Below are positions 2,682 to 15,364 of a stretch of DNA of 64,000 nucleotides, piece after piece. The stretch spans positions 62,001 through 126,000 of the forward strand of contig BQJK01000003.1 of NCBI GenBank assembly GCA_021604665.1, in the 5' to 3' direction. Each line of letters begins with the position of its first letter. Within the stretch, counting starts at the first letter, position 1. This DNA comes from Rhodomicrobium sp. (GTDB lineage: Bacteria; Pseudomonadota; Alphaproteobacteria; Rhizobiales; HXMU1428-3). A program made the translations under genes and the position numbers. The notes beneath the pieces are model-generated. The model had not been told where the DNA came from. It did not search any database and was given only the letters and a program-made list of their open reading frames with translations.

Positions 2682-3167
2682 TTATTCGCTATCTTCGGCA
2701 CTGCCAGCTTGGAGCAGACCATAATTTTGAATGCCAATATTCTCCAACAGTTCCAGTTGGGTTTCCAACCAATCAATATGGCCTTCTTCATCAGCCAGTA
2801 GCTCTTCGAACAATTTTTGGGTTACATAATCTTTCTTTTCTTCACAGACCTCGTGGGCTTCCTGATAAAGATTGCGGGCGCTATATTCACCGGCTAGATC
2901 ACATTCCAGACATTCTTTAATATCTTCACCGATCCGCAGTGGATCGAGATATTGCATATTGGGGTGGCCTTCAAGCATGAGGATGCGCTCAATCAACTTA
3001 TCAGCATGGCCCATTTCTTCGATGGATTCTTCGCGCAGTTTTTTCGCTAGCTTGGTGTAACCCCAATCTTCCAACAGGCGGTAATGCAACCAATATTGAT
3101 TTACCGCCGTCATTTCATGTTTCAGTGACTTGTTGAGATATTCAATGACGTCTTTATCGCCCTGCAT
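2682..3167 (-). CDS. bfr: Bacterioferritin
   Basis: 161 residues, the standard bacterioferritin length. It stores iron as a ferric mineral inside a 24-subunit cytoplasmic shell. All di-iron ferroxidase ligands are present: Glu18, Glu51, His54, Glu94, Glu127 and His130. Met52 (EEMGHADK) is the axial heme ligand shared by two subunits, which distinguishes it from plain ferritins. The start ATG at 3167 is the only one giving the canonical [16 protein letters not shown]-terminus. bfd lies 165 bp upstream on the same strand, so the storage protein and its release partner may be co-expressed. I found no clear Irr or Fur box directly upstream. Confidence 0.96.
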
Positions 3168-3332
3168 TCCCGGCCTCCAGTTCGTATAATATTTTCAAGA
3201 GTATTGCGTGACCTAATCATCTGGTCAATTTCGTAGTGTACATGATTAAAGTGTCACAAGCGTGCAGCCTGTGCAGGGGGAGGGGTGTTCAGAAATATAT
3301 GGAAGGTGACGGGCAAGATGTTAGATTTTAGC

Positions 3333-3647
3333 TTACCAGCTTCGCAGGCCTTGGCGTGTTTGTTTATTGACTGCCCGCTGGCTAGTGGCATTTTTCTTTT
3401 TATTTCTGATTTTCTCTTGCAATCTTGAGAGGTGAATGACCTGGCAGCCATTATGTGAAGGGTGATCAATTTCGTTAATGATGGTTTCTATTGCGAGTGT
3501 TAGGCAAGTGCCGCATTCAGCGCGGAAACCAAGCTTTTTATATATAAGCCCAGGGGTGAGCAAAGCGTTTGGGTCTTCTTCCAGAAGTTCAGTGACGACT
3601 GCCCGAATTTGTTTATCTGAAATTCGATTGCATGAACATATTATCAT
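3333..3647 (-). CDS. bfd: Bacterioferritin-associated ferredoxin (BFD-like [2Fe-2S])
   Basis: 104 residues with an N-terminal [2Fe-2S] module: Cys4, Cys6, Cys45 and Cys48 in the C-x-C ... C-x2-C arrangement typical of Bfd (MIICSCNRIS ... AECGTC). Bfd donates electrons to bacterioferritin heme to reduce and mobilise stored iron, and the position just upstream of bfr fits that. Residues after about 70 form a Lys/Arg/Asn-rich extension that ordinary Bfd (about 64 residues) lacks; its role is unknown. The true protein might be shortened by a sequence difference here, but I see none. Confidence 0.92.
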   Translation of the reverse strand: MIICSCNRISDKQIRAVVTELLEEDPNALLTPGLIYKKLGFRAECGTCLTLAIETIINEIDHPSHNGCQVIHLSRLQEKIRNKKKNATSQRAVNKQTRQGLRSW

Positions 3648-5976: not shown

Positions 5977-6546
5977 CTAGCCTGTCGCCTTCAGAGTCTC
6001 GGGTAGGTTTTGAGGTTCTATTTGCCAGGCTGCAAGACTTGCGGTGCCTTGTAGCGTGAGATCATTTGAGAGCAGATGATGTGCAAATTTATTTGTGGCT
6101 GTGACGACCGGCTCAACGTCATCCCCGCCAATAAGCGCATAAGCGCAAGCGGCGAGAGCTGGGCAAGCACTTTGCTGGCCAGCGGCAATCATGGTGATTG
6201 CCATGCGCTCATTTGAGTTGAAATGATCGCTTTCCCATGGGGCCACTTCGATATCGCGGTCAGCTGACTGATGCACGGTCTGTACCCAAAAGGCCAGATC
6301 TGCGATTGTGCTGCGGGCTGTTTCAACCCCAAGATGACCGGCGAAATAATCCCAGCTGCGTTTCCAGAATTCGATATCTCTGGTGCGGTAACCGGTCATC
6401 CAGAACCGGAAGCCCAGCCCTACCAGTTGCTCTGGTGATTTAAGCGGTGCGGTAAAGCCTGCATTTTTGAGAGCTGGATTCTCTTTATTTATTTTCTCTA
6501 GAATTTCATTGATGATGGCTGTTTCATTGTGCTGGATCTCACTCAT
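5977..6546 (-). CDS. Unrecognised protein, paralog A of the divergent iron-locus pair
   Basis: 189 residues; I do not recognise the family. It is clearly homologous, by eye about a third identical, to the protein at 7670-8293 on the other strand. The shared core runs from LVGLGFRFW (41-49) through T-x-D-I-x-F, a central FWV (86-88) and AITMIAAGQQSACPALAAC (116-134); Cys128 and Cys134 in CPALxAC are conserved in both. No signal peptide or membrane segment is evident, so it is probably a soluble, mostly helical cytoplasmic protein. Translation is probably coupled to the 72-residue ORF upstream: its start codon overlaps that ORF's stop as ATGA, and an AGGGAG site lies 8 nt before the start. Function is unknown; context suggests a role linked to iron. 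Confidence 0.82.
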   Translation of the reverse strand: MSEIQHNETAIINEILEKINKENPALKNAGFTAPLKSPEQLVGLGFRFWMTGYRTRDIEFWKRSWDYFAGHLGVETARSTIADLAFWVQTVHQSADRDIEVAPWESDHFNSNERMAITMIAAGQQSACPALAACAYALIGGDDVEPVVTATNKFAHHLLSNDLTLQGTASLAAWQIEPQNLPETLKATG

Positions 6547-6761
6547 GCGCTTGCTCCCTCTTGGCTGGATAAACAGGCTTTGGGTGAGGGATAGTGGGTT
6601 GGTCCTGCCATAAGGGTTGATAATGTGCTGACCGCTAAAAAGACCGGATCTAAACAGAGTATTTCTGATGTGAGAGGTAGCGGGGTGATCGCGGATGGTG
6701 TGCGGTTTTTGGCTGTCAGTGATGACAAGCCGGACGCGGGGCGCCGTGCATCGTAGTTCAT
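6543..6761 (-). CDS. Small ORF (72 residues) translationally coupled to paralog A
   Basis: The ATG at 6761 follows a GGAG ribosome site that belongs to the 37-nt leader at 6768-6804, and the stop overlaps the next gene's start (ATGA). The peptide is Ser/Pro/Thr/Ala-rich with two Cys (in EILCLDP and KACLSSQ) and no membrane segment. It has no visible similarity to the 55-residue ORF in the matching position on the other side. It may be a leader peptide, a small functional protein or only a translation-coupling device. Confidence rests on the ribosome site and the overlap, not on homology. Confidence 0.5.
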   Translation of the reverse strand: MNYDARRPASGLSSLTAKNRTPSAITPLPLTSEILCLDPVFLAVSTLSTLMAGPTHYPSPKACLSSQEGASA

Positions 6762-6767
6762 TATTCT

Positions 6768-6804
6768 ATCTCCAATAGACGGGATTCAAGGTCCCGTAAT
6801 CAGA
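6768..6804 (-). promoter_or_regulatory. 37-nt conserved mRNA leader with hairpin next to RBS (left copy)
   Basis: On the minus strand this stretch is identical over 37 nt to the plus-strand stretch at 7213-7249. It contains ACGGGA-CCTTGAA-TCCCGT, a 6-bp hairpin with a 7-nt loop, and ends in the GGAG ribosome site of the small ORF starting at 6761. A structure placed about 5 nt before the Shine-Dalgarno suggests a binding site for a translational regulator or a short RNA switch. Confidence 0.75.
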
Positions 6805-7107
6805 TTAATCTTCTGTCTTGCTTACCACAGCCGGCCTCTGAAACTAGCTTGCTGCGCTTCTGTTTATTGCAGCTGAAAAAGCGCTGTTTTGTCAGAGACT
6901 TTATGAGCACTCATGTTGTTTTACTACATGATTTAAATGCTTTATCTGGCTTTGCTGCCGGTTAGGACTTACCTGAAAAGCCTTGTAGATTTAGCGCCAT
7001 TTATCTCTTCATTTTGCGGATAATTTCACTGCAATTTGTAAGCTAGACGAAGGCATGATCAGCCAATGGGTGTGGTTTTGTCAATAATTATTGTGATTGT
7101 CGTTAAA

Positions 7108-7124
7108 TTTAGAATGATTATAAA
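7108..7124 (+). promoter_or_regulatory. Irr-box / iron control element (ICE)-like site
   Basis: TTTAGAATGATTATAAA is a near-palindrome with one mismatched pair between half-sites TTTAGAA and TTATAAA. It closely matches the ICE/Irr-box consensus known from Rhizobiales (TTTAGAA-N3-TTCTAAA). Its centre lies about 35 bp upstream of the -35 element at 7149, a location used for activation by Irr in known cases. The genes it would control, imelysin and partners, fit iron-limited expression. Confidence 0.6.
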
Positions 7125-7148
7125 CTATTGTTTTTATTCATTTTTCTA

Positions 7149-7178
7149 TTGACGAATTTTTTTATCTCAGCTTATTCT
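7149..7178 (+). promoter_or_regulatory. Sigma70-like promoter for the rightward iron operon
   Basis: TTGACG (7149-7154) and TATTCT (7173-7178) are separated by 18 bp. Transcription would begin near 7185 and include the hairpin leader at 7213-7249. Only sequence similarity supports it. Confidence 0.45.
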
Positions 7179-7212
7179 CTCTGAAACCTGCCAGCGACTG
7201 GTGGGTGTTTGG

Positions 7213-7249
7213 TCTGATTACGGGACCTTGAATCCCGTCTATTGGAGAT
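7213..7249 (+). promoter_or_regulatory. 37-nt conserved mRNA leader with hairpin next to RBS (right copy)
   Basis: Exact inverted copy of 6768-6804. The hairpin occupies 7220-7238 (stem ACGGGA/TCCCGT) and the GGAG ribosome site is at 7244-7247, 8 nt before the ATG at 7256. Both divergent transcripts therefore begin translation from the same 5' element, although the sequences on either side differ. Confidence 0.75.
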
Positions 7250-7255
7250 GAGAAA

Positions 7256-7423
7256 ATGACCACTATTCCTTCGCCAGATGGCACGGCGTTTGCCCGTTTA
7301 TATTCTGGCTTTCATACCCTTCCTTTCTATTCATATGAGCCTGTCTCTGATGGGCTTGGCTTCGATGCGAGTGAGCCTCAGCTTGGCAAGGTTTTGCCTC
7401 GCTCAGTGCTGGATTTGATTTAA
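7256..7423 (+). CDS. Small ORF (55 residues) behind the conserved leader
   Basis: ATG at 7256 with a well-spaced GGAG site; 55 codons to the TAA at 7421. The peptide starts MTTIPSPDGTAFARLYSGF, is rich in aromatic residues, Pro and Asp, lacks Cys, and ends VLPRSVLDLI. No signal peptide or membrane helix. The next gene on the strand begins 246 bp later. It may be a small protein, a peptide precursor or a regulatory upstream ORF; I do not recognise it. Real translation is suggested by the ribosome site and by the parallel arrangement at 6543-6761. Confidence 0.5.
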   Translation: MTTIPSPDGTAFARLYSGFHTLPFYSYEPVSDGLGFDASEPQLGKVLPRSVLDLI

Positions 7424-7669
7424 AGCGAGTTGGTTTGGTCAGCGCTTTATGTCAATGCGCGGGCTGTTCCATTTAGGGCAATGATTGCACCAAATTCGGT
7501 TGCATATCTTTTAACAAATTCAGCCCCTGCCTTAACTCAAATAACCTTCGAGCTTTGTCTGGTCACCCTCAGTTTGGGCTGTGATCATTATTATTAGCTA
7601 GCTGGCCCTCTAGAGCTTATTCAAAAGTTTCTCAGGGCTGATAACCAGTGAATAGATTTTCGGATTGAA

Positions 7670-8293
7670 ATGATGAAACTTAAAACACATGCCAGATTTG
7701 GCACTCCGTCTGCGGTGAGCGAAACCCTGATGGACCAGGATGATTTAGATGAAACTTATAACCACGAGCACCGTGAACTAACTGCGCCCTGGAACTATGA
7801 AGACCCTTCGCCGCTGAGTGACCCAGCGCGGCGGGCTGAGAGATTGGTGGGGCTTGGGTTCCGGTGCTGGGTGCGCGGCCTTCAAACCAGCGATACAAGA
7901 TTTTTTGATGTTTGCAGCCGTCAGTATATCCAGAGTTTTGGACTGAAGGATGGGCTGGTGCTCTCGACCCGGCTTGGCTTTTGGGTCAATGCGCTCACTG
8001 ATGTGAGGAAGCGGCCTTTCTCAATTTTTGAAGTTGGCTCACATGGGTTTAGCCATGATGAAGCTGTTGCGATTTCCATGATTGCTGCATCTCAGCATGC
8101 GGAATGCCCAGCGCTTCGGGCTTGTATTTTTGCGATTACAGAAGCGGTAGATACCGACCTGGCACAATTAGCGGCGCAGGATTTTGCGGATGGGCTGATT
8201 GATGCAGGCAAAATTTTACGACCAGGGGCAATTGCCTACCCGTTACAACATATGGCAGCGGGAGACACAGCAAGCGGCGGCCTGGCGCATTGA
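7670..8293 (+). CDS. Unrecognised protein, paralog B of the divergent iron-locus pair
   Basis: 207 residues and homologous to the 5977-6546 product: LVGLGFRCW (59-67), GFWV (103-106), SHDEAVAISMIAASQHAEC (128-146) and CPALRAC (146-152) align with it. The N-terminal 55 residues are acidic and not shared. No signal peptide or membrane helix is seen. The start is uncertain: tandem ATGs at 7670 and 7673 have no strong ribosome site, and Met21 (7730) is an alternative. The imelysin gene follows after 44 bp, making a shared transcript likely. Family and function are unknown; co-location with periplasmic iron genes suggests a regulatory or maturation role in the cytoplasm, which is inference. Confidence 0.82.
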   Translation: MMKLKTHARFGTPSAVSETLMDQDDLDETYNHEHRELTAPWNYEDPSPLSDPARRAERLVGLGFRCWVRGLQTSDTRFFDVCSRQYIQSFGLKDGLVLSTRLGFWVNALTDVRKRPFSIFEVGSHGFSHDEAVAISMIAASQHAECPALRACIFAITEAVDTDLAQLAAQDFADGLIDAGKILRPGAIAYPLQHMAAGDTASGGLAH

Positions 8294-8337: not shown

Positions 8338-9630
8338 ATGATCAATAATGTGATGCGGCAGTTTGGTGCCGTTATGACGGTTGGCCTGGCACTTGGTGTC
8401 AGCGGAGGGGCTGCCAGTGCGGCAGAACCGAAGGTAAAGGATATTGTGAATACCTACGCCGATATTGCCCATGCAGGATATGAAGATAGCCTGCTGACGG
8501 CCAAAGCCCTGAAGAGCAAATTGGAAGCTTTGGTACAATCACCTACATCTAAAACACTAGCCGCTGCCCGCAAGGCGTGGATTGCTGCCAGGGTGCCTTA
8601 TCAGCAAACTGAGGCTTTTCGGTTTGGTAATGAGGTGGTTGATAATTGGGAAGGCAAGGTAAATGCCTGGCCGCTTGATGAAGGGTTAATTGATTATGTT
8701 TCTTCTGATTATGGCGACAGCTCAGATGAGAATGATCTTTATACTGCAAATGTCATTGCCAATAAGACCATTACCATTGGCGGTAAAACTGTTGATGCCA
8801 GCACCATTGATAAGAAGCTGATCTCTGAAACTCTGCATGAAGCGGGTGATGTTGAAGCCAATGTTGCAACCGGCTATCACGCGATTGAGTTTCTCCTTTG
8901 GGGTCAGGATTTGAACGGCACTGGCAAAGGGGCTGGCAACAGACCTGCAACTGACTTTGACAAAAAGAATTGCAGCAATGGCAATTGTGACCGCCGGATT
9001 GATTACCTGATGGCAGCGACAGATCTTTTGATTGATGACCTCACAGAGATGACCGGCCATTGGAGTAAAGATGGTTCTGCAAGGAAAACATTGTTGGCGG
9101 CAAGCGACAGCGAAGCTTTAAACGCCATCTTTACCGGGCTTGGCTCGCTTTCTTATGGTGAGCTGGCGGGTGAGCGGATTAAGCTTGGCCTGATGCTGCA
9201 TGACCCGGAAGAAGAGCATGACTGCTTTTCTGACAACACCCACAATTCACATTTCTACGATGCGCTTGGTATCCAGAATGTTTATCTCGGCCGCTATAAG
9301 CGGGTGAATGGTGATGTTGTTTCAGGTGCCTCTATTTCTGATCTGGTGCAGGCGCGTGATGCAAAAGTTGATAGTGAGTTGAGAGCTAGACTTGAAACAA
9401 CTATGACTGCCATGGGCGCTATGGTGAAGCGTGCTGAAACAACTGAGGCCTATGACCAAATGATTGGTGAGGGCAATGATGAAGGCAATGCTGTTGTGCA
9501 AGCTGTTGTTGACGGGCTATCTGGACAAACACAAGCTTTGGAGCGTGCGATAGCAGCGCTTGAATTGAAAGCCATTCAGTTTGAAGGCTCTGACAGCCTT
9601 GATGCGCCTGAAAAAGTCGGCGCTGAATAA
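8338..9630 (+). CDS. Imelysin-family periplasmic iron-acquisition protein (IrpA-like, M75)
   Basis: 430 residues from the ATG at 8338, which follows a clear AAGGAG site; an earlier in-frame start at 8290 has none. The N-terminus is a signal peptide ending near ASAAE (residue 30), so the protein is exported to the periplasm. The imelysin signature GxHxxE appears as GYHAIE (Gly179-Glu184), followed by FLLWGQD. Two Cys lie in KNCSNGNCD. Imelysins are iron-regulated and act in uptake or binding of iron; no peptidase activity is established for the bacterial iron-uptake group. It heads the set imelysin-porin-DHOR-imelysin-DUF1513. Confidence 0.92.
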   Translation: MINNVMRQFGAVMTVGLALGVSGGAASAAEPKVKDIVNTYADIAHAGYEDSLLTAKALKSKLEALVQSPTSKTLAAARKAWIAARVPYQQTEAFRFGNEVVDNWEGKVNAWPLDEGLIDYVSSDYGDSSDENDLYTANVIANKTITIGGKTVDASTIDKKLISETLHEAGDVEANVATGYHAIEFLLWGQDLNGTGKGAGNRPATDFDKKNCSNGNCDRRIDYLMAATDLLIDDLTEMTGHWSKDGSARKTLLAASDSEALNAIFTGLGSLSYGELAGERIKLGLMLHDPEEEHDCFSDNTHNSHFYDALGIQNVYLGRYKRVNGDVVSGASISDLVQARDAKVDSELRARLETTMTAMGAMVKRAETTEAYDQMIGEGNDEGNAVVQAVVDGLSGQTQALERAIAALELKAIQFEGSDSLDAPEKVGAE

Positions 9631-9637
9631 TGGTTTC

Positions 9638-9704
9638 TGTAAACAATTTTGCGGGGCTTTTAGCTGAACTTAACTAATGCCCCCGCAAGATTGTTTGCAA
9701 TTTT
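9638..9704 (+). terminator. Long hairpin between imelysin and porin genes
   Basis: Arms 9638-9656 and 9681-9699 can pair over 19 bp including two G-U pairs, with a 24-nt loop and only a TTTT after the stem. It may partly terminate or stabilise the imelysin transcript. Confidence 0.5.
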
Positions 9705-9960
9705 CGATTATATTGTTACAACATAACGATTGCTATGTTATATCATCACAAAATAATCAGTGGCATTTCGGTAACAGCCAGTATGGGAAATCGATATGTG
9801 ACTGTTTGTGACCTTGCCGGACTAAATTTCTAGCCCTAGGGTCTAACCCAGCTATCTTATTGATTTTATTGTTGTTTTTTAGTTTTACTCAACAATATCT
9901 TTTCGTTTCATGCATCTATTCCCGGGGGTCCGGGAGAGTGACATTTATGGGGGACATTTC

Positions 9961-11256
9961 ATGTCTATTACTTCTTTTAGGGGGATCTCACGTGCGGTGG
10001 TTACCGGCGCATCCCTGTTTGCTTTTGCCTCGATGGGCAATTTTTCTACCGCGCAGGCGGCTGATTTCGGCGGCGATTGCTGCGCTGATCTTGAAGAGCG
10101 GGTTGCCGTTCTTGAATCAACGACAGCTCGCAAGGGCAACCGCAAAGTTTCTCTAACCATTTCTGGTCATGTAAACCAGGCATTGCTGTTGTGGGATGAT
10201 GGCGATGAGAGTGATGTTTATGTTGTTGGCAATGCCAATGATGATCTCAGCATGTTCCGTTTTGAGGGCGACGCTAAAATCGCGCCTGGATGGACAACTG
10301 GTTTCACCATGGAAATTGAAGTGGCGAGCGCTTCGTCTGGTGATGTTTCACAAACAGATGATGATGCCGCGAATGAAATAGGTATCAGCGAAGTCTCTAT
10401 GTACATTGAGAGCGAACGCTATGGTAAAGTTACCTGGGGTTTTGCCGGGCAACCTTCTGATGGTGCCCCTGAGATGGACCTTTCCGGTGCCCATTATGCT
10501 GGCTATGCAGCGATTGCTGATGTTGGTGGTGGCTTCCAGTGGCGCATGAATAATGGCCTTGGTCTTTCAGGTGTTACGCTTGGTGGGGTTTTTGATGATC
10601 TGAATGGTGATACCTTCAACATCATCCGTTATGACACTCCAACAATCGCTGGTTTCACACTTTCTGCTGCCTGGGGTGAAGATGACCTTTGGGACGTGGC
10701 GCTTACATATGAAAAAGAGCTAGGTGCTTTTGAAGTGGCTGCTGCGATTGGCTATACTGAAAACAGAGACAATGATGATGATGGCCCGTTAAATAATGAC
10801 ACGCTGGCAGGCTCTGTTTCTATTCTTCACACACCAACTGGACTTAACCTGACATTTGCTGCAGGTGAACGCCAGTTCAACAACACACCAGGCCGGGCTG
10901 ATGCTGACTTTTATTATGTGAAAGCTGGTATTTTCCGCAGATATAACAGCCTTGGTAAAACAGCTATCTATGGTGAATATGGCCAGTATAATGACATGTT
11001 CTACAATGACGGTGCTGATGGCGCTGATGCTGCCGCCATTTCAAATGCGCTAACAGGTAATGGTGCTGCTGTTATCAATGGTAGTGAAGCCACTGTCTGG
11101 GGTGTTGGTCTTGTTCAATATGTTGACGCCGCCGCTATGCAGCTTTTCCTCGCTTATCGTCATCATGAGCTTGATCTTGATGCTGCCGGTGGTCTTGCTG
11201 TTAATGGGTTAGAAGATTTTGACACTGTTTTAGCTGGTGCTCGGATCGAGTTTTAA
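9961..11256 (+). CDS. Outer-membrane porin (alphaproteobacterial porin_2 type)
   Basis: 431 residues from the ATG at 9961 (GGGGGAC ribosome site); an upstream ATG at 9910 gives no signal peptide at its start. The signal sequence ends near AQAAD (about residue 30). Next comes a short DCCADLEERVAVLES segment, a coiled-coil-like stretch common near the N-terminus of rhizobial porins, followed by many alternating amphipathic segments (for example VSLTISGHVNQALLLW). The C-terminus is LAGARIEF, with the terminal Phe needed for outer-membrane assembly. Many acidic residues (DDGDE, NRDNDDDG) lie in predicted loops. Its place inside the iron cluster suggests it may help iron or iron complexes enter, but general porins cannot be assigned a substrate from sequence. 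Confidence 0.88.
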   Translation: MSITSFRGISRAVVTGASLFAFASMGNFSTAQAADFGGDCCADLEERVAVLESTTARKGNRKVSLTISGHVNQALLLWDDGDESDVYVVGNANDDLSMFRFEGDAKIAPGWTTGFTMEIEVASASSGDVSQTDDDAANEIGISEVSMYIESERYGKVTWGFAGQPSDGAPEMDLSGAHYAGYAAIADVGGGFQWRMNNGLGLSGVTLGGVFDDLNGDTFNIIRYDTPTIAGFTLSAAWGEDDLWDVALTYEKELGAFEVAAAIGYTENRDNDDDGPLNNDTLAGSVSILHTPTGLNLTFAAGERQFNNTPGRADADFYYVKAGIFRRYNSLGKTAIYGEYGQYNDMFYNDGADGADAAAISNALTGNGAAVINGSEATVWGVGLVQYVDAAAMQLFLAYRHHELDLDAAGGLAVNGLEDFDTVLAGARIEF

Positions 11257-11333
11257 TCCTCAGATCCGAAACCCTATTCAACTTTAAAGTTATGATATGA
11301 TTGTTTTACAGATAAGACGATTTATAGAAACGC

Positions 11334-11366
11334 AAGTCCTCACCCACCGGGTGGGGACTTTGTTTT
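11334..11366 (+). terminator. Terminator after the porin gene
   Basis: A 12-bp stem (AAGTCCTCACCC with GGGTGGGGACTT, one G-U pair) and ACC loop are followed by a T-rich tract. It separates the porin transcript from the downstream DHOR gene. Confidence 0.75.
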
Positions 11367-12883
11367 ATTCCAGGTTTTATAGCGGATTTAAATTTCTGCG
11401 CTTGCCCCATAATAGCTTTTTAGGGGCTGGTGTTTTGGGGCTTTGCCTCATTGCATCGGGGTTGGTTTTCTCACTTCCGGCAAAAGCTGAAAACTCTGTT
11501 ACCGCGGTTTTTGAACCTGGTGAAGATTTGCCTGGCGGGGAGGCAACCTATCGCAAGCGGGCGAATAATCGCAATGCTTTTTCCCATTCTTCCGGTAATC
11601 TCAAATTTAAAGATGAGCTGCTTTTTAAAGTCGGCAATGGCTTGTTTCGCAAGCTTTGGGTTTCGTCTCCCTCCTCAACCAAATCATCTGATGGGCTTGG
11701 GCCGTTGTTTAATGCCCGCTCTTGCCAGCGCTGTCATCTGAAAGATGGGCGCGGTCATACGCCGAATGCGAACTGGCCAGACGATAGCCAGGTTTCTATG
11801 TTTCTCAGGCTTGCCGTGCCGCCGCGCTCAGATGAAGAGCGGGCATTGCTCAAGGCTGGCAAAGTTTCAGTTATTCCCGAGCCAACATATGGCACACAAT
11901 TACAAGATCTTTCGGTGCAGGGGCATAAGGGTGAGGGGCATATGTCTATTCACTATTCACCCCGCACTGTCACATTTAAAGATGGCACTGAAGTAGAGCT
12001 GCGGGTGCCGCATTATAAAGTTACTGACCCCGCTTATGGCCCGCTGGCCGATGATGTACGCATTTCTCCGCGGGTCAGCCCGCAGATGATTGGGCTTGGG
12101 CTGCTGGAAGCTATACCTGAAGCTGATATATTAAAGCGGGCTGACCCGCTTGATAAAGATGGTGATGGCATCTCTGGCAAGGCCAACCGGGTGTGGTCAC
12201 TTGCCAATAAGAAATTGATGCTCGGGCGCTTTGGGCTGAAAGCCGGGGCGGTCTCGGTTAAAGAACAATCTGCTATGGCGTTTGCTGGCGACATTGGTAT
12301 CGCAAATAGCCTGGTGCCGCGCCCCTTTGGGGACTGCACCAAAGCTCAAGCCCTTTGCCAAAAGGCCCCGCATGGCGCTGACGATGAGCTTGGTACCATT
12401 GAAATTTCTGACAAAATGCTTGATCTTGTTGCTTTTTATGCCCGCAACCTGGCGGTGCCGAAACGGCGCGGTGCTAGGGATGAAGCCGTATTAAAAGGCA
12501 AGCATCTGTTTCATCAGGCTGGTTGCGCTTCTTGCCACGCGCCGTCTTTTACCACCGGTGCCTCACCGGGCAACCCGCATCTTGAGGGCCAGAAAATCTG
12601 GCCTTATACGGATATGTTGCTGCATGATATGGGTGATGGGCTGGCGGATGAGTTGGTTGAAGCGAAAGCCAGTGGCCGTGAATGGCGGACATCTCCTTTA
12701 TGGGGCGTTGGCCTAACAAAGACTGTGAGCGGCCATGAATTTTTGCTGCATGATGGGCGGGCGCGCTCTGTTGAAGAGGCTATTCTGTGGCATGGCGGAG
12801 AAGCTGAGACGGCGCGCGCTTTTTACATGGCGCTTAATAAAGAGCAGCGTGACTATTTGCTGGCATTTGTTAAGTCACTTTAA
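11360..12883 (+). CDS. Di-heme oxidoreductase (DHOR family), periplasmic
   Basis: About 507 residues. The open frame extends back to an ATG at 11297, but that start would lie upstream of the porin terminator, so a TTG at 11360 or a later alternative start is more likely; the start is uncertain. A signal peptide ends near LPAKAEN. Two c-type heme sites are visible, CQRCH and CASCH (Cys122/Cys125/His126 and Cys389/Cys392/His393 from the TTG). The arrangement matches the DHOR family of di-heme proteins found between two imelysin genes in many proteobacteria, where it is thought to handle iron redox during uptake. An ATP-independent periplasmic role is inferred. Good match in length and order. 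Confidence 0.88.
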   Translation: MFYSRFYSGFKFLRLPHNSFLGAGVLGLCLIASGLVFSLPAKAENSVTAVFEPGEDLPGGEATYRKRANNRNAFSHSSGNLKFKDELLFKVGNGLFRKLWVSSPSSTKSSDGLGPLFNARSCQRCHLKDGRGHTPNANWPDDSQVSMFLRLAVPPRSDEERALLKAGKVSVIPEPTYGTQLQDLSVQGHKGEGHMSIHYSPRTVTFKDGTEVELRVPHYKVTDPAYGPLADDVRISPRVSPQMIGLGLLEAIPEADILKRADPLDKDGDGISGKANRVWSLANKKLMLGRFGLKAGAVSVKEQSAMAFAGDIGIANSLVPRPFGDCTKAQALCQKAPHGADDELGTIEISDKMLDLVAFYARNLAVPKRRGARDEAVLKGKHLFHQAGCASCHAPSFTTGASPGNPHLEGQKIWPYTDMLLHDMGDGLADELVEAKASGREWRTSPLWGVGLTKTVSGHEFLLHDGRARSVEEAILWHGGEAETARAFYMALNKEQRDYLLAFVKSL

Positions 12884-12981: not shown

Positions 12982-14148
12982 TTGTTCGCTCTCTTCTCTT
13001 GCTTTTTTAGCCGCTATTTACCTCTTTTTGCGGGCTTGGCACTAGCTCTTGGGATGGGGTTTGGCATCCTGGTCGCCTCCCCCTCAGCTCAGGCTGCCAG
13101 TGAAACGGAGGAGATACTTAGCCATTTGGCAGAACGGGTGATAACCGGGCATATTCAACCGCGCTATAAAGATTTGCAGCAAAAGAGCAGTGAGCTGGCT
13201 TTAGGCATGGCGCAGTTTTGCGAAACTGGGGGGTCGCTTCATGCGCCGCGTCAATTATTCACCAAAACGGTCTTAGCCTTTGCGGCCATTGATCATATTC
13301 AATTCGGCCCAGCTTCTGAGGAGTACAGGCTTGAGCGCTTCGCTTATTGGCCGGACCGCAAGGGGCGGGGACTTAGAGCGGTGCGGCGGGTTTTAAAATC
13401 GGGCGATAAAACAGTGTGGAAGGCGGCGGCGCTTTCGCAAAAAAGCGTGGCGGTGCAGGGGCTGACAGCTCTTGAATTTTTGCTCTATGGCAAAGGCTCT
13501 GAAACGCTGGCGACTGTTGATGGTTCTGAAGCCAATGCTGCTGCTAACTTCAGGTGCCGTTATGGGCTTGGTATCGCGCAGAATTTGCAAGCCATTGCAA
13601 CTGAGCTTTCTGATGAATGGCAAGCTGGCGCGCCGATCGTCACGGCGCTGTTAGCGCCCGGGGCAGGCAACAAGCTTTATCGCACACGCAAAGAAGTGAT
13701 CCTCGAATTCTATAAGGTTGTGACGGCGGGGCTTTCGCGCATCCATGACCTTAAAATGAGCCCGCTTATCGGGCGTGATGCTGCCCATGCAAAACCCAGA
13801 CGGGCGGCGTTTTGGAGATCTGGAATGGCGCTTGATGTCATTCGGCAGAACCTCACCGCGATTGAAGATTTGATTACTGTGGGCCGGTTCCGTGAATTAT
13901 TGCCAAAGAAACCAATTGATCTGCCAGCCTATGTCGACAAACTCTTTCAATATCAATACCGGGCGATTGATGGATTTAAAGGCGATAAGCATAGGGGTGA
14001 TATTGCGCTTATTCTGCAAGATGAAAATGGCAGGGCGGCCTTTCAGCAATTAATGAACAAGATCAATCATACTGCTGTTGGCTTTGGCCGCAACCTTGCT
14101 GTCGCGGCGGATTTGCCTATGGGGTTTAATGCATCCGATGGAGATTAG
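12982..14148 (+). CDS. Second imelysin-family protein
   Basis: 388 residues from a TTG at 12982, 8 nt after a GGAG site; no ATG is in frame before the signal peptide. The signal sequence ends near SAQAAS (about residue 39), so it is periplasmic. The motif equivalent to GxHxxE reads GLTALEFLLYG: the His is replaced by Thr, as is common in the second imelysin of these clusters. It probably works with the first imelysin and the DHOR protein. The DUF1513 gene starts inside its last codons, indicating coupled translation. Confidence 0.88.
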   Translation: MFALFSCFFSRYLPLFAGLALALGMGFGILVASPSAQAASETEEILSHLAERVITGHIQPRYKDLQQKSSELALGMAQFCETGGSLHAPRQLFTKTVLAFAAIDHIQFGPASEEYRLERFAYWPDRKGRGLRAVRRVLKSGDKTVWKAAALSQKSVAVQGLTALEFLLYGKGSETLATVDGSEANAAANFRCRYGLGIAQNLQAIATELSDEWQAGAPIVTALLAPGAGNKLYRTRKEVILEFYKVVTAGLSRIHDLKMSPLIGRDAAHAKPRRAAFWRSGMALDVIRQNLTAIEDLITVGRFRELLPKKPIDLPAYVDKLFQYQYRAIDGFKGDKHRGDIALILQDENGRAAFQQLMNKINHTAVGFGRNLAVAADLPMGFNASDGD

Positions 14149-15364
14149 CAGACGACAAATGCTGGCTGTGGGTCTTCATTTGGGCCTAAGTTCCGGCCTT
14201 TCTATGGGTGGGCTATCTGCGCTGATGGGCGAGAAGAACAGTCAGGCTGCTGCGGCCACCAGCACAGAAAATTTAGAGACTGAAGCGCTTTTTGCGGCGG
14301 CTCGGCGGGATGCTGATGGGGATTTTTCAGCGGCGCTGTTCACGATGAAAGGTGACCTCCGCAGCATTCCTTTGCCGGGGCGGGGGCATGATCTTGCAGC
14401 CCGGCCTCATAGTAGAGATGTTGTGGTATTTGCCCGGCGGCCGGGGCGGTTTGCCATTGTCTTTTCACCCAATCTAAAAATAGACCCACTATTGTTTCAC
14501 GCGCAGGCGGGCCGGCATTTTTATGGCCATGGGGTGTTTTCACCTGACGGTCGTTTGTTATTCACGAGTGAGAATGACTATGAGGATGGCGTTGGGAAAA
14601 TTGGGATAAGGGATGCTAGCAAGGGCTATCAGCAGATCGGTGAATTTTCATCATATGGTGTTGGGCCCCATGATCTAGCGTTGCTAATGGATGGGCGAAC
14701 GCTGGTGGTAGCAAATGGTGGGTTAGAGACCAGCCCAACCAGTGGCCGTCAGATTTTGAACCTTGCCACTATGGAACCCTCACTGGTTTATATTGATACC
14801 CAAAGCGGTGACCTTTTGGAAAAACATGTGCTTGCTCGCTCATTGCACCAGCTTTCCATCAGGCATTTGACCATTGCTTCCCATAACCGGGTTGCTTTTG
14901 GCTGCCAATATAAAGGGGCGGCGGGTGATCAACCGGCTTTGGTTGGCTTTCATGATCGGGGCTCTGAGCCACAGCTTTTTCATGCACCGGATGATGTGCA
15001 GCCTGCTTTAAAGAATTATATTGGCTCGGTAGCTGTTGACCCCTTTGGGGATGTGATTGCCGCTTCTGCCCCGCGCGGGAATATGATCACCTTTTGGCGG
15101 GCAGCTGATGGCAAATATTTAGGGCGTGAGATTTTAACTGATGGCTGCGGCGTGGCGCGCGGAGCGGAGCGGCATGGCTTTCTTTTGACCAGTGGGCATG
15201 GTGTTAAGAAATTGGGTCAGCCGGACTTGGAAGGGCCTGCAGATGAGCCAGAGAATAGTGCCGTGAAATCACCTGAGATTAAGTCTGATACGATAAATGC
15301 CTCAGCATTTGAAAGCCAGACAACTAGATTTCAGTGGGATAACCATGCGGTGCGGGTGCGGTGA
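14129..15364 (+). CDS. DUF1513 protein with Tat signal, iron-locus partner
   Basis: 411 residues from the ATG at 14129 (alternative ATG 14138), overlapping the preceding imelysin gene by 20 bp. The N-terminus has a twin-arginine signal, ISRRQMLAVG, then a hydrophobic stretch, so it is exported folded to the periplasm. The body has beta-propeller character with repeated short motifs (HGVFSPDGRLLFTSEND, VGPHDLALLMDGRTLVVANG) characteristic of DUF1513. The family regularly closes imelysin/DHOR clusters; its molecular role is not defined. The last 45 residues are polar and probably disordered. Confidence 0.88.
   Translation: MHPMEISRRQMLAVGLHLGLSSGLSMGGLSALMGEKNSQAAAATSTENLETEALFAAARRDADGDFSAALFTMKGDLRSIPLPGRGHDLAARPHSRDVVVFARRPGRFAIVFSPNLKIDPLLFHAQAGRHFYGHGVFSPDGRLLFTSENDYEDGVGKIGIRDASKGYQQIGEFSSYGVGPHDLALLMDGRTLVVANGGLETSPTSGRQILNLATMEPSLVYIDTQSGDLLEKHVLARSLHQLSIRHLTIASHNRVAFGCQYKGAAGDQPALVGFHDRGSEPQLFHAPDDVQPALKNYIGSVAVDPFGDVIAASAPRGNMITFWRAADGKYLGREILTDGCGVARGAERHGFLLTSGHGVKKLGQPDLEGPADEPENSAVKSPEIKSDTINASAFESQTTRFQWDNHAVRVR

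Follow-up and report, generated by a model that had tools for sequence, protein, structure and literature searches.

The twin leaders carried by a 64,000-nucleotide stretch of Rhodomicrobium sp. DNA (the window) are copies of a short RNA hairpin that recurs ahead of iron genes in the order Hyphomicrobiales. We consider it probable, at roughly 80%, that this leader is a cis-acting RNA element defining a post-transcriptional iron regulon in that order, with transcription set through an Irr box and translation set by a gate that is read at the hairpin loop. The element resembles an undescribed on/off switch that would act on the translation of iron genes. The first-pass annotation had put forward an iron-responsive pair of proteins controlled together after transcription. 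This suggestion survives in its iron context and in the hairpin sequestering the Shine-Dalgarno (SD) sequence, which is common to both arms of the locus and to the iron operons of other genera; the important unit, however, is the RNA leader with its regulon and not the protein pair. The more specific proposal of a regulator/effector pair is not borne out; in other genomes the protein is mostly single-copy, within fbp or imelysin operons.

Twin leaders in the window

The proteins A189 (5977–6546, minus strand; 189 aa) and B207 (7670–8293, plus strand; 207 aa) are encoded on opposite strands and are paralogues (32% identity over 140 aa, E = 6e-23), as had been recognized from the sequence alone. 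The leaders lie at 6767–6805 on the minus strand and at 7212–7250 on the plus strand and are supported by folding and by two covariance models, which score them at 60.2 and 58.8 bits (R1) and at 56.5 and 54.6 bits (R2), respectively. They form a 47-nt inverted repeat that is 91% complementary, in agreement with their earlier description as a pair, and share an identical 33-nt core, of which 0 such cases are expected by chance. The same genome holds a third, weaker copy immediately 5′ of fbpA (G000:C3:153594-153632).

Each leader also supplies the ribosome site of a short ORF, as was previously noted, with the ORF starting a few bases 3′ of the leader GGAG. The left upstream ORF (6543–6761, minus strand; 72 aa) initiates from the leader SD, and its stop codon overlaps the start of A189 by 4 nt (ATGA). 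The right upstream ORF (7256–7423, plus strand; 55 aa) likewise initiates from the leader SD and ends 246 nt 5′ of B207. The box resembling the iron control element (ICE) that had been reported between the leaders is found at 7108–7124, between the divergent promoters, as an Irr-box-like palindrome, TTTAGAATGATTATAAA; an ICE palindrome at the promoter is a feature of the Irr/ICE regulon.

On the right arm, B207 is the first full-length gene of an imelysin operon whose gene order is the same in relatives. It is followed on the plus strand by genes for imelysin (8338–9630; PF09375, E = 4e-86), a porin-like protein (9910–11256), the di-haem oxidoreductase DHOR (11297–12883; PF06537, E = 5e-102), a second imelysin (12982–14148; PF09375, E = 7e-35), and a DUF1513 protein (14078–15364; PF07433, E = 3e-104). 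Pfam bears out the imelysin, DHOR, second imelysin, and DUF1513 labels given to this arm in the first-pass annotation, but the porin label has no Pfam match; the position of the porin-like gene is conserved in relatives. A low-scoring Rfam match to mir-242 at 9640–9697, 3′ of imelysin, resembles an intrinsic-terminator hairpin (GCGGGGC...GCCCCCGC) and may mark a site of termination or attenuation that separates imelysin from the porin-like gene. A few kilobases to the left of the twin leaders (2682–3647, minus strand) lie bacterioferritin-like and Bfd-like genes, which carry no leader here; bfd-bfr in other genomes has one.

Anatomy, conservation, and distribution of the hairpin

In both window copies the leader is a ~36-nt RNA hairpin composed of an inner and an outer stem, an anatomy that is strongly supported. 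The aligned element reads UCYGAU-NN-CGGGG-CCUUGAA-CCCCG-NNN-AUUGGAG and is followed by the start codon. RNA folding shows that the outer stem, UCYGAU/AUUGGA, takes in the GGA of the SD sequence, and both window copies fold in this way at about −11.6 kcal/mol. Single-sequence folds beat shuffled sequences only modestly (z = −0.4 to −2.0). In an alignment of 82 distinct leaders, pairing holds in 94% of cells, and 8 of the 11 pairs have changed on both sides. With 16, 44, or 82 sequences aligned, covariation scores higher, and compensatory-change cells are more numerous, than in any of 500 shuffles or any slid control.

Conservation ends sharply, with sequence information falling to ~0 just beyond the hairpin edges. 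Of the 94 annotated copies, a set that leaves out about 20 of the weakest R2 matches (E ≤ 0.1), 62 have CCTTGAA as their 7-nt loop and the rest have near variants; the near-invariant loop is common to unrelated genes within one genome. At the same leader-enriched loci, a hairpin followed by an SD was found 115 times with CCTTGAA and 0 times with 12 shuffled loop words. Pairing of the loop with flanking mRNA in a pseudoknot was considered and rejected, as loop complements within 150 nt are not clearly enriched.

Homologous leaders were first seen within the genus and then, unexpectedly, directly 5′ of fbpA in other genera. Applied to 199 genomes of the window’s order, Hyphomicrobiales, which includes the rhizobia and Brucella, the first covariance model, R1, detects the element in 35 at E ≤ 0.001. 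Its training set was chosen near fbpA loci and loci of the A189/B207 family and over-represents both kinds of target; the Bfd, FTR1, SufA, FeoA, HmuTUV, and TonB receptor contexts were unselected. The second model, R2, was used at a loose cut-off of E ≤ 0.1, at which the weakest matches may be chance, and detects the element in 68 of the 199 genomes, about one third. Outside the order, R1 has no match among about 380 genomes, and R2 has three weak matches among about 330 genomes, with no SD, start codon, or iron gene; these few matches in other parts of the class appear to be chance. No leader was found in the plasmid-borne fbpA/imelysin loci of Sinorhizobium, Rhizobium, Shinella, Methylobacterium, Paracoccus, and Azospirillum, and viral contigs contain no exact match to the leader pattern. 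Among the genomes searched, the leader is order-specific and confined to Hyphomicrobiales.

Promoters, target genes, and the A189/B207 family

A listed iron gene lies downstream of 93 of the 94 annotated copies, the remaining copy preceding an FeoA-domain protein, and the gene starts within 600 nt of the leader in 90 of them. The downstream genes are fbpA (39 copies), an A189/B207 family gene (35), imelysin (7), bfd (5), HmoA-like (2), SufA-like (2), and, with one copy each, cupredoxin-FTR1, a TonB receptor, the hmu permease (hmuTUV), and the FeoA-domain protein. In most genomes the leader directly starts a full-length gene, in some of them the family gene itself. At three loci (L178, L182, and L187) the leader serves a start codon that shares the imelysin reading frame, adding an extension of ~40 residues before the apparent signal peptide; this may be an upstream ORF fused to imelysin, or imelysin may start internally. 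At three others (L117, L118, and L198; leaders at 7329–7367, 7615–7653, and 347–386), an ORF of ~60 aa separates the leader from a distant family member. This ORF is recognizably conserved across the three genomes, with a ..WDLATGHA..-like core, has no Pfam or NCBIfam match where tested, and is followed by HmuTUV in L118 and L198; unlike the short ORFs of the window, it may encode a real small protein.

Irr is a low-iron/haem regulator, and the ICE motif is the iron control element that it binds. Irr-box-like palindromes are significant in 70 of 93 regions upstream of leaders, at a median distance of 88 nt, so transcription is probably set by Irr, and translation would be set by the hairpin. 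In the window’s genome, the palindrome at 7108–7124 is the best match and the only site within one mismatch of TTTAGAANNNTTCTAAA. When two mismatches are allowed, sites are no more numerous than for a reversed control pattern, and only 7108–7124 is therefore meaningful in this genome. An Irr-box-like palindrome with two mismatches (L229:1502-1518; G000:C3:190827) lies just 5′ of an nfuA-like Fe-S scaffold gene; the CCTTGAA beside it was rejected as a candidate, as it sits within the nfuA-like coding sequence.

Profile searches with A189 and B207 returned no characterized family, as the first reading of the locus had supposed. The proteins have no match in Pfam, NCBIfam, PHROGs, or PDB sequences, and profile searches gave only a TAL-effector repeat match at E = 0.11, below the cut-off. 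An AlphaFold2 model of A189 built from six sequences is all-helical (pLDDT 77, pTM 0.76); none of its structural matches reaches significance, the best being at a Foldseek E of 0.79 and a VIA-align Z of 5.5 (Rap2a). R47 and E113 are invariant in the family, as is Q124 barring one masked residue. Many members carry a CRDEC motif, of which both window paralogues have kept just the glutamate; lacking the cysteines retained by most members, the pair in this genus may be functionally divergent.

Within the order, 69 of 199 genomes have homologues; beyond these genomes, an alignment query recovered them from 26 of another 288. The survey confirms that the family associates with the leader and with iron genes: at 32 of 40 loci mapped in the order the family gene is accompanied by fbpA/fbpB, imelysin, DHOR, or bfd/bfr, usually as direct neighbours, and the common layouts are fbpA-family-fbpB and family-imelysin-DHOR-imelysin2-DUF1513. 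We infer that the family protein is a cytosolic accessory of the iron regulon. It was also considered as an obligate leader-binding factor. It is absent, however, from seven leader-bearing genomes searched with a profile that matched the family in genomes outside the order, in a run without a positive control of its own, and it occurs outside the order with no leader detected. With these seven lacking it, the family protein does not qualify as an obligate reader.

Proposed mode of action and comparison with known systems

In the mechanism that we propose, transcription would begin at promoters carrying the Irr box, and the 5′ end of the mRNA would fold into the two-part hairpin, whose outer stem (UCYGAU with AUUGGA) would hide the SD and whose inner stem would display the CCUUGAA loop. 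This loop, the internal loop, or both would then be read by a factor or ligand common to the regulon, which would alter exposure of the SD and so coordinate the translation of fbpA, imelysin, bfd-bfr, and further iron genes. What we infer is regulation at the step of translation, iron status as its signal, and recognition of the loop by a trans factor in preference to a directly bound ligand. In its fullest form, to which we would give not quite even odds, the system would be a Hyphomicrobiales functional analogue of the animal IRE/IRP system, in which the CCUUGAA hairpin is recognized by one dedicated trans factor, either a protein or a small RNA, that adjusts translation of the iron regulon to iron status in addition to control by Irr. 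A search of the window’s genome for an Irr-box-linked small RNA carrying UUCAAGG found no convincing candidate. A link to RirA was also discarded, as the leader occurs in 12 of 36 RirA-bearing genomes and in 56 of 163 others, with no association.

The hairpin could instead be a small riboswitch that binds a ligand reporting iron status (haem, Fe2+, citrate, or similar) through its conserved loop and internal loop. Such a compact cis element with a conserved loop and a sequestered SD would be in keeping with this, and a regulon spanning uptake, storage, and Fe-S genes would fit a common ligand; at just 36 nt and one hairpin, however, it is smaller than ligand-binding folds usually need to be, and we regard this alternative as rather unlikely. 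We think it quite unlikely that the hairpin is a constitutive damper, which would lower translation of strongly Irr-activated mRNAs and respond to nothing. SD sequestration would suit such a device, and the searches turned up no regulator, but a damper needs no conserved 7-nt loop, and the element is confined to iron genes; the near-invariance of the loop across unrelated genes favours a shared reader or ligand over a passive brake. An RNA thermometer, ROSE-like or other, would also sequester an SD close to start codons, and ROSE-like thermometers do precede ABC transporters (PMC11342760). It would have no use for an invariant loop, the targets here are iron genes rather than one class of transporter, Rfam gives no match, and the strand opposite the SD is UCYGAU and not the ROSE motif U(U/C)GCU, all of which makes a thermometer very improbable.

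Returning to the proposed loop-read gate, the window would hold one copy on each divergent arm, with the gated SD starting a short ORF whose peptide is irrelevant and, on the left arm, with that ORF handing ribosomes to A189 through ATGA coupling. The 4-nt overlap of the left ORF with A189 is kept in all six genus members (6/6), although the peptide is not conserved, and the same overlap joins a short ORF to the family gene in L066 and L199, to bfd in L204, and to imelysin in L206. As the overlaps are kept and the peptides vary, the short ORFs look like coupling devices that pass hairpin control to the next gene. The right ORF, which shows no sign of coding selection in relatives, is not explained by ATGA coupling, given its distance from B207; our guess is that its translation protects the mRNA from Rho or RNases. 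That the peptides themselves are the point, as regulatory or antimicrobial-type products handled by A189/B207, is the least probable reading: a short ORF and then a family protein do follow both leaders, but the ORFs differ between close relatives across all codon positions, which speaks against the earlier idea of a peptide plus handling protein, no conserved precursor peptide of the kind expected for a RiPP precursor with its modifying protein was found, and most genomes have a full-length gene, the family gene included, started directly from the leader.

The first-pass annotation knew of no described system with this layout, and the element was not found in the searchable literature, in which subscription journals are largely outside coverage, so an earlier description is not fully excluded. 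No family in Rfam 15 covers the window leaders at E ≤ 1, and the other leader loci gave a lone P10 match (L106, E = 0.1), below the gathering score. Translational riboswitches resemble the leader in placing the SD within a conserved structured 5′ element, and the basal stem of the msiK motif contains the ribosome site (PMC2864571). The leader differs from these SD-sequestering elements in its many unlinked iron targets, the lack of an Rfam match, and the lack of a known ligand. ROSE-like thermometers are SD-sequestering hairpins, some of them before ABC transporter genes, in which U(U/C)GCU pairs with the SD (PMC11342760); the leader lacks this motif and has a conserved loop and iron-only targets. 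In Pelagibacter, a putative structured RNA lies upstream of the sfu iron operon, for which RNA control was suggested (PMC2864753). In both cases RNA-level control is proposed for an iron ABC operon of an alphaproteobacterium, but class-wide searches gave no convincing copy of the hairpin beyond the order.

A close regulatory context is the Irr/iron control element regulon (Rudolph et al. 2006, cited in PMC4842269), with which the leader shares an ICE-like palindrome 5′ of most copies and the same gene classes. Irr acts on DNA, whereas the hairpin would constitute a second, RNA-level layer. In the searchable literature, iron control in Hyphomicrobiales runs almost solely via DNA-binding regulators (Irr, RirA). 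If our reading is correct, one hairpin before uptake, storage, haem, and Fe-S genes adds a whole layer of control, provides a defined bait for its reader, and explains an unknown protein family as part of a regulon. Animal IRE hairpins are read by aconitase-type proteins. Like the leader, the IRE is a single small hairpin whose conserved loop recurs across many iron mRNAs, and the leader is likewise predicted to act on translation. The IRE has a CAGUGN hexaloop and a bulged C, whereas the leader, in its 94 copies, displays CCUUGAA or near variants, directly overlaps the SD, and is found in a single bacterial order.
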